Assembly: GCA_900100325.1 (NCBI GenBank)
Contig: LT629697.1
Location: 1,426,001-1,490,000, forward strand
Direction of reading: 5' to 3'
Length of the DNA stretch: 64,000 bases
From: Frankineae bacterium MT45
GTDB taxonomy: Bacteria > Actinomycetota > Actinomycetes > Mycobacteriales > Jatrophihabitantaceae
Shown here: positions 60,001 to 61,506 of the stretch, piece by piece
How positions within the stretch are numbered: the stretch's first letter is position 1
Layout of the letters: every line of letters begins with the position of its first letter
Position numbers and translations under genes: made by a program
Notes under the pieces: generated by a model
Told to the model about the DNA's origin: nothing
The model's input: only the letters and a program-made list of their open reading frames with translations
Databases searched by the model: none

Positions 60001-61506
60001 TCAAAACCCCGTAATCCGGGGGGTCGGCGCGCCGCAGTGTCTTCTCAGGTGGGCCGGTTTCGGGGTCGGTCTGGTGGCGCGTTCAGGACATATCGGACTG
60101 GCGTTGACGGTACCTGGGGGCCGGTTTCGTCTGGGCTTAAACCCTGTGTAACATAGGTCCTCGTGCCCTACGGGGTATGCCGGATCTGATCCGGGCCAGA
60201 TTTTTCTGGGGCTGTGGCGCAGCTGGTAGCGCACCACACTGGCAGTGTGGGGGTCAGGGGTTCGAATCCCCTCAGCTCCACCCATTTTTATTGGGCTAGA
60301 AGCACTTGGCTCAAGCTCGAAAAAATCCTGGTTGCCAGTTTGGTTGCCATTGGTTGCCAAAGGGCTCAGCAGTACGTCTCCCATCCGGTCCGCGGCTTCG
60401 CGGGCCAGCGCGGGCATGACGTGGCTGTAGATGTCCATGGTGGTCCGCATCTGTGAGTGGCCCAGCAGCTCCATGACGACCCTGGGGTGGACTCCTTCCG
60501 AGAGCAGCAGGGTCGCGGCGGTGTGCCGACCGTCGTGCAGTCTGACGTGGCGCACGCCGGCGCGTTCGAGCAGCCGGCACCAGTCGTCGTAGTCGCTCTT
60601 CTTATCGATCGGCCGGCCGATGGCTTGGGCGAAGACGAGATTGTCGTCGTTCTGCCACTCCGTTCCGGCCAGCATCCGCTCGCCGAGCTGGGCTGCCTTG
60701 TGGGTATGCAGTGCCGCCACGAGTGGCATCGGGAGCACCAGCGTGCGCTCGCTGCGCTTGGTCTTCGGTGCCTCGTAGACCAGGCCGCCACCTTTGACCC
60801 GATGCAGCGTGCGCCGCACGCTGAGGGTGTTGTTCAGCAGATCGATGTCGCGCCACTGCAGCGCGAGCGCTTCTGATTGACGCAGGCCCAGCGCGAGCGC
60901 GACGGTCCAGCGGGCTGAGTTGCGTAGGCCAGTGGCGGCGGTAAGTACTGCTCGGGCTTCGTCGAGGTCGAGCGCTGTGGCGGCTTCGCTCCGGCGCTGG
61001 GCGGGCGGGTCGACGAGAGCGGCGACGTTGCGGTGGATGCGCCCGCGTTGCATCGCGACTTTGAGAGCACGAGAGATGATCCGGTGCGCCCTTAGAACCG
61101 TGGCGGCTGAGAGGCCGGAGTCGAGCAGATCGCCATAGAAGTGTTCGAGGTGTTCCGGTTGAAGCCGGTCGAGGCGGTGACGGCCGATGCCGGGGGAGAT
61201 GTGCATTCGCACCATCGACTCGTAGCTCTCCAGAGTTCGCGGCCGTACGCGCCGAGCCGCGATGTTGGTCAGCCAGTGCTCCAGCCAGCCGGTGACGGTG
61301 TCGGAGGTGACCGCGGACATCTGGCCGGTCTCACGCTTGACCTCGAGGTCGCGGATCTTCTCGACTACCTCTTTACGGGTCTTGCCGCTGCGGTGGCGTC
61401 GGTCGCGCTGACCGTTCGTCTTCAACCCGACCGTGATCCAGCCATGCCAACGGCCGTCGTCGTCCTGATAGATCGTCGTCTCGCCGCTTGAGCGTCGATG
61501 TGCCAT
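60001..61506 (-). CDS. int: Tyrosine integrase whose frame runs through attL and the tRNA
   Basis: A 501-codon frame. The N-terminal arm-binding part (GETTIYQDDDGRWHGWITVG), the core-binding domain (LEHWLTNIAARRVRPRTLES) and the catalytic domain are complete. Active-site residues are Arg in LGLRQSEALALQW, His-x-x-Arg in RLHDGRHTAATLLL, His in LLGHSQMRTT and Tyr in MDIYSHV. The natural protein ends near residue 400-408, but no stop occurs. About 95 further codons read the tRNA-Ala antisense (GAEGIRTPDPHTASVVRYQL) and the chromosome beyond it. ATG 61506 follows GGAAGGA. It excises and integrates the element at the tRNA. Confidence 0.93.
   Translation of the reverse strand: MAHRRSSGETTIYQDDDGRWHGWITVGLKTNGQRDRRHRSGKTRKEVVEKIRDLEVKRETGQMSAVTSDTVTGWLEHWLTNIAARRVRPRTLESYESMVRMHISPGIGRHRLDRLQPEHLEHFYGDLLDSGLSAATVLRAHRIISRALKVAMQRGRIHRNVAALVDPPAQRRSEAATALDLDEARAVLTAATGLRNSARWTVALALGLRQSEALALQWRDIDLLNNTLSVRRTLHRVKGGGLVYEAPKTKRSERTLVLPMPLVAALHTHKAAQLGERMLAGTEWQNDDNLVFAQAIGRPIDKKSDYDDWCRLLERAGVRHVRLHDGRHTAATLLLSEGVHPRVVMELLGHSQMRTTMDIYSHVMPALAREAADRMGDVLLSPLATNGNQTGNQDFFELEPSASSPIKMGGAEGIRTPDPHTASVVRYQLRHSPRKIWPGSDPAYPVGHEDLCYTGFKPRRNRPPGTVNASPICPERATRPTPKPAHLRRHCGAPTPRITGF
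60208..60280 (+). tRNA. tRNA-Ala (anticodon GGC)
   Basis: A 73-base cloverleaf: acceptor GGGGCTG with CAGCTCC (one G-T), D-stem GCGC/GCGC with AGCTGGTA loop, anticodon stem CCACA/TGTGG with loop CTGGCAG giving anticodon GGC, T-arm AGGGG-TTCGAAT-CCCCT and discriminator A. The 3' CCA is not encoded (CCC follows). It is the integration target of the element on its right and remains complete. Confidence 0.96.
60255..60300. other. Left attachment site (attL), approximate
   Basis: The integrase gene lies directly beyond the 3' end of the tRNA and points into it, as for elements that integrate in tRNA 3' halves. The crossover core should lie in the T-arm/acceptor part (about 60255-60282). Its right-hand partner is outside the window, so the exact core cannot be set. 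Confidence 0.45.
60329..60359. repeat. Three TGGTTGCCA repeats next to attL
   Basis: TGGTTGCCA occurs at 60329, 60341 and 60351 (spacing 12 and 10). They lie in the 3' part of the integrase gene, encoding the G-N-Q/N-G-N repeat, about 50-80 bases from the tRNA end. Spacing near one helical turn suggests integrase arm sites. Confidence 0.6.

Follow-up and report, generated by a model that had tools for sequence, protein, structure and literature searches.

The window, a 64,000-nucleotide stretch of the Frankineae bacterium MT45 genome, carried a tRNA-Ala(GGC) gene at 60207..60284 on the plus strand, called by ARAGORN, which was the attachment target of an integrated element; in a same-genus genome, this locus was 93% identical up to the tRNA end. 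On the minus strand, an integrase frame ran from ATG 61527 or ATG 61506 to a stop at 60001, encoding 508 or 501 aa, respectively. The ATG at 61506 was likely the start, because in many relatives at 72-76% identity a stop interrupts the frame at query residue 5. Its N-terminal SAM-like and catalytic domains occupied 60358..61506 (minus strand) and were supported by Pfam, PDB relatives, and alignment A2, with matches to Phage_int_SAM_3 (PF14659) and Phage_integrase (PF00589, E 2.1e-23). In the 508-aa form, the Phage_integrase match ended at residue 370. Residues R209, K248, H324, R327, H350, and Y360 (numbered from ATG 61506) were all invariant among relatives in alignment A2, and this R-K-H-R-H-Y set within the Phage_integrase domain identified the protein as a tyrosine site-specific recombinase of the phage-integrase type. 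The adjoining HTH_17 protein (PF12728; 61566..62057, minus strand) is an excisionase-like candidate, judging by its family and position.

The first-pass annotation of this stretch had described an integrase frame with no stop codon ahead of attL that reads the tRNA-Ala antisense and ends at 60001, and both the description and the coordinates were right. The frame passed through three TGGTTGCCA direct repeats (60329..60359), the att core at 60239-60257, the entire antisense tRNA, translated as GAEGIRTPDPHTASVVRYQLRHSP, and 206 nt of chromosome. The frame takes in this last stretch (60001..60206, minus strand) only when the island is integrated, and homologous sequence occurred in relatives without the island. 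The C-terminal extension of the integrated state as a whole (60001..60357, minus strand) was predicted to be unstructured, as AlphaFold2, run with a 16-sequence alignment, gave a pLDDT of ~28-42 from residue 381 on versus 70-90 across most of the catalytic domain. An HU-like gene, recognized by eye at window positions 59670-59945, started 55 bp past the stop of the integrase frame on the same strand; a transcript crossing the tRNA-Ala(GGC), if any, would enter it.

A whole-genome search located the far end of the island, where the 19-bp att core of attL, CTGGCAGTGTGGGGGTCAG (60239..60257, plus strand), had an exact match at L007:18537-18555 (genome C1:1504137-1504155). This attR was at window-equivalent position 78137, 14 kb past the window. 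The two sites shared the exact 19-bp core, were 88% identical over 50 nt, and lay ~17.9 kb apart, which is the approximate length of the island. The exact core therefore points to a crossover centered on the anticodon loop, where CTGGCAG (60239-60245) is the likely 7-bp overlap; from the overlap on, the 3' half of the tRNA was island-derived. The TGGTTGCCA repeats are putative arm-type integrase sites because of their position and because GCAACCA repeats stood at both ends of the relatives' elements. Repeats like TGGTTGCCA also adjoined attR at L007:18400-18420. An intact tRNA and an integrase marked one end of the element and a displaced 3' fragment of the tRNA marked the opposite end, making it a tRNA-integrated genomic island.

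The island carried defense-type genes at L007:4773-18121 (C1:1490373-1503721, just past the window), including a SIR2 protein (PADLOC PDC-S65), a TIR effector, an SLFN-type helicase, and a type IV restriction enzyme, and was therefore regarded as a defense island. Actinomycete ICEs (AICEs) combine Int, Rep, and an FtsK-like Tra; a scan of ten ORFs from the island or its flank (the longer ORFs) found no Rep or Tra domain, and the island was not classed as an AICE. A DNA search of phage records returned tRNA matches, one weak 93-bp match, and nothing else. In the same-genus genome, the same tRNA held a different island remnant, with an IS110-like transposase and no recognized integrase among its tRNA-proximal ORFs.

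The first-pass annotation had also proposed that the C-terminus of the integrase depends on whether the element is integrated, an idea that an attP encoding the same end would contradict. Once attR was found and attP was rebuilt in silico, the two ends differed, the integrase being 501 aa at attL versus 446 aa in the rebuilt circle (508 versus 453 aa from ATG 61527). The crossover fell at about codon 423 of 501, and the two frames diverged at codon 430 (508-aa numbering), inside the anticodon loop; the circle form ended with HTAS, TPKPGSRRVAGVRKSLKTRGMST, and a stop, versus HTASVVRYQLRHSPRK and onward in the integrated form. The circle tail of the window's element, beginning TPKPGSRRVAGVRKS, resembled the tail of the L207 element, beginning QPPARSRRPAAVRKS. 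This resemblance at first suggested protein conservation, but the motif was also kept in non-coding right ends, which leaves it as no more than weak evidence.

A tRNA rebuilt from attR kept its Ala(GGC) call, but its T-stem was broken and its acceptor had a mismatch, indicating that the displaced end had drifted. The genome search found no second tRNA-Ala(GGC), the nearest match being Ala(CGC). Because the displaced tRNA end at attR had decayed and the cell would probably suffer from precise excision, the window's island looks trapped.

Searching the relatives' own genomes for attR allowed 16 integrase/attR pairs to be rebuilt, and the circle and integrated C-termini differed in 15 of them, extending the dependence on integration state beyond the window. 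The circle frame stopped 2-3 codons past the crossover in 14 of the 16 elements, ending in GAEGTRTPDPHTARP followed by S or T, and the integrated frames of those 14 continued for 26-286 codons into unrelated host DNA. Unlike most relatives, the window's own circle frame stopped 23 codons past the crossover. A 1-bp insertion abolished the circle stop in L065, and L047 was frame-shifted, stopping at the tRNA edge in the circle and integrated forms alike. All 18 right ends compared had the TGA past the crossover in their DNA; it was in frame in 17 of them, and a 1-bp insertion shifted it out of frame in the other. This TGA was embedded in a conserved DNA block, and related blocks were conserved also where they were non-coding; its conservation is therefore no proof of selection on the stop.

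Six relatives (L044, L051, L056, L060, L072, and L103) had another right end, reading ARAA...WHHxxAA before the stop, which was in the same place in five of them. We considered whether this end was a circle tail conserved as coding sequence, its stop alternating between TGA and TAA, and dropped the idea, as these right ends bore TGGCACCA repeats, as found on the integrase side of stop-bearing sister elements, and appear to be the right ends of tandem neighbors. Because the sister integrases stop ahead of the tRNA, the conservation is at the DNA level, and at the six loci two element families have probably inserted in tandem into one tRNA-Ala. Arm sites can thus mimic a conserved frame. Three of the six right ends shared the downstream ORF start MTTLSLADAKAHLSALVARV, which was antitoxin-like by eye.

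A contig scan gave 80 loci, many of them with Geodermatophilaceae integrases at 70-79% identity, and later searches added more; read-through was counted over distinct integrases oriented toward a tRNA close by. At an identity of at least 68%, 35 of 39 integrases read through the tRNA-Ala(GGC), and most of these used the GAEGTRTPDPHTASVVRYQLRHSP frame. Stops ahead of the tRNA were found in 5 of 7 integrases at 50-68% identity and in 24 of 25 below 50%, the remaining one stopping within the tRNA. The former included L208, L211, and L212 (63-66% identical, in the same tRNA-Ala), which stopped 91 nt ahead of the tRNA after ALW and D or G. The comparison of antisense-tRNA integrases proposed by the first-pass annotation thus bore out read-through across the clade and went against it as a general feature. 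The shared design that the annotation had suggested did not hold, since integrases outside the clade, including those at the same tRNA-Ala, stop before the tRNA, and we ruled out a universal design of tRNA integrases. A chance single ORF was likewise ruled out by the clade-wide read-through.

On the integrase tree, a single stop loss mapped to the base of the window's clade, whose sister L010 ends in WT and a stop, and a separate loss mapped to L067, whose sisters L209, L211, and L212 retained the stop. Because 28 of 78 control off-frames in the clade were also open through the tRNA, an open frame across this antisense tRNA is cheap in such GC-rich DNA once the ancestral stop is lost. Judged from these sequences, the clade-wide stop loss is beyond chance, and read-through is a real, clade-wide, derived trait.

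Protein-level constraint on the tail appeared weak by the measures used. In 29 equal-length relatives, pN/pS was 0.095 over the last 60 catalytic codons versus 0.65 in the 31-codon tail, and shifted frames of the tail gave 1.07 and 1.31. With changes mapped on the integrase tree, the tail as a whole had a third-position excess (p = 0.03), which was confined to a hairpin; the tail without the hairpin had 31, 39, and 39 changes at codon positions 1, 2, and 3 (p = 0.40). About 3.6 stop gains were expected in the tail versus at most 1 observed, a weak signal. In displaced non-coding flank copies beside attR, the same frame was open in 16 of 18 and codon phase was absent. From these sequence comparisons, the tail appears to evolve mostly like non-coding DNA.

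The tail contained the putative arm-type repeats and, in the relatives, also a strong hairpin next to the 3' end of the tRNA, in frame and 10-20 nt ahead of the tRNA in most of them (~-27 to -47 kcal/mol). If this hairpin ended most integrase transcripts before the stop, the resulting non-stop messages would be tagged by trans-translation and protein levels would stay low, a form of control comparable to ArfA. We consider such control very unlikely: from its position the hairpin is best read as the terminator of the tRNA itself, it lacks a U-tract on the integrase strand, and in the window the integrase-strand fold ahead of the tRNA was weak (-13.3 kcal/mol, z 0.76), with no terminator found there on that strand. 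The extension could also be purely notional, with transcription from the strong tRNA promoter and the tRNA terminator halting integrase transcription before the att core, such that neither the integrated nor the circular state would ever yield the tail. The tRNA-Ala is convergent with the integrase, and the hairpin flank is RNA- or DNA-like rather than coding, with displaced copies lacking codon phase, as this explanation would have it. However, a canonical terminator was not found on the window's integrase strand, and a message without a stop would hinder making integrase at all, leaving the notional extension highly improbable. Separately, in the attR flanks of L162-L185, the displaced tRNA 3' flanks bore the hairpin seen on the element side, which might be a copy of the host tRNA terminator made by the element or a remnant of earlier insertions.

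The explanation that we regard as probable is that a stop loss let the frame cross attP, giving a C-terminus that depends on integration state, with a tail that is tolerated and not selected. The clade ancestor would have lost the stop codon just past the catalytic domain, and the frame would then have extended by default over the arm-type sites, the hairpin or linker, and the att core. With the crossover within the frame, integration and excision would exchange the C-terminal tail, an exchange seen in sequence as the 501-aa and 446-aa forms. In the Geodermatophilaceae relatives, the far end of the element supplies the nearby stop and so a defined circle end, and the integrated gene continues into whatever host DNA adjoins. 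The catalytic domain alone would do the work in both states. Translation through the att site and tRNA into the tail is inferred from the open frame, and the state-dependent C-terminus is probably a by-product. Several observations count against this by-product view: the slight third-position excess and the tail pN/pS below that of the shifted frames may fit some protein-level selection, as may the in-frame stop in nearly all right ends, and the state without a stop has been maintained over ~25% amino-acid divergence.

A precedent for a functional C-terminal exchange is the integrase of the Myxococcus phage Mx8, which spans attP; integration swaps its C-terminus and modifies its activity (Tojo 1996 and Magrini 1999, as cited in PMC6070905, PMC4701971, and PMC4383910). 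In the summary in PMC4701971, 112 residues are replaced by 13 on integration, and the integrase becomes less active. As in those accounts of Mx8, attP in the window's element lay within the integrase coding sequence, and the C-terminus was replaced with the catalytic part intact, the 501-aa and 446-aa forms giving an Mx8-type anatomy. Unlike Mx8, whose integrase is shortened by integration in those accounts, the window's integrase frame was lengthened by host sequence, antisense through tRNA-Ala. The window's clade is independent of Mx8 and reached the same architecture separately.

By analogy with Mx8, the clade might possess a selected state switch, in which the integrase made from the circle, with its short attP-encoded end, is fully active, and after integration the host extension lowers or redirects this activity, stabilizing the integrated state. 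The common circle end of 14 elements with its much longer integrated counterparts, the retention of the TGA while adjacent bases vary, and the lowered activity of integrated Mx8 all favor it. However, the TGA lies within right-end DNA that is conserved anyway, the integrated frames end in whatever host sequence lies there, the pattern fails in L065 and L047, sisters with plain stops use the same site, and the window's own circle frame overshoots the usual stop. We therefore regard a selected switch as unlikely, possible but unsupported. The related proposal that this actinobacterial tRNA-Ala clade senses integration via the far-side stop, such that clean termination of the integrase is confined to the circle and the host-extended form is less active or unstable, seems decidedly unlikely. 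The switch between integrated and free states raised by the first-pass annotation was accordingly not borne out, given the arbitrary extensions, the almost unconstrained pre-tRNA tail, and the decayed attR of the island.

Other elements resemble the window's island in part. Streptococcal ICEs in rumA have their att site inside a serine integrase gene, a placement found in very few elements (PMC4701971), and in them, too, integrase length and C-terminus differ between the integrated and excised states. They differ from the window's integrase in using a serine recombinase and a protein-coding target gene. The archaeal "suicidal" SSV-type integrases have att inside the integrase gene and a tRNA-related target, as here, and their integration disrupts the gene (PMC8371274). 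The window's integrase is unlike these, as its catalytic domain stays whole with the crossover past it, and it was not classed as suicidal. The island shares with the tRNA islands of the Islander database a tyrosine integrase, an anticodon-centered att site, a restored tRNA 3' half, and a displaced fragment at the far end; unlike in the usual case, its integrase frame crosses att. Islander itself excepts integrases known to extend across attP, namely Mx8 and SSV (PMC4383910). The arrangement is thus known but rare, with few cases known already. The clade adds a phylogenetically replicated state-dependent integrase C-terminus with normal-stop sisters in the same tRNA, and the Mx8 idea of a C-terminal switch is therefore testable by comparison.

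The first-pass annotation had read stretches like GAEGIRTPDP in other integrases as a sign of design. This GxxRTPDP motif is nothing more than the T-arm read antisense, and other frames yield GLEPLTP. Annotators should take care that integrase tails with GxRTPDP or GLEPLTP represent antisense tRNA and no conserved domain. Unrelated integrases in L016, L018, L019, and L022 also entered antisense tRNA T-arms; no complete tRNA was found there, and these are possibly further attP-like or tandem junctions. In a same-family genome, the frame of a large serine recombinase (Pfam Recombinase; L126:1846-3228, minus strand) ran antisense through tRNA-Ala(GGC) in the GLEPLTP frame.
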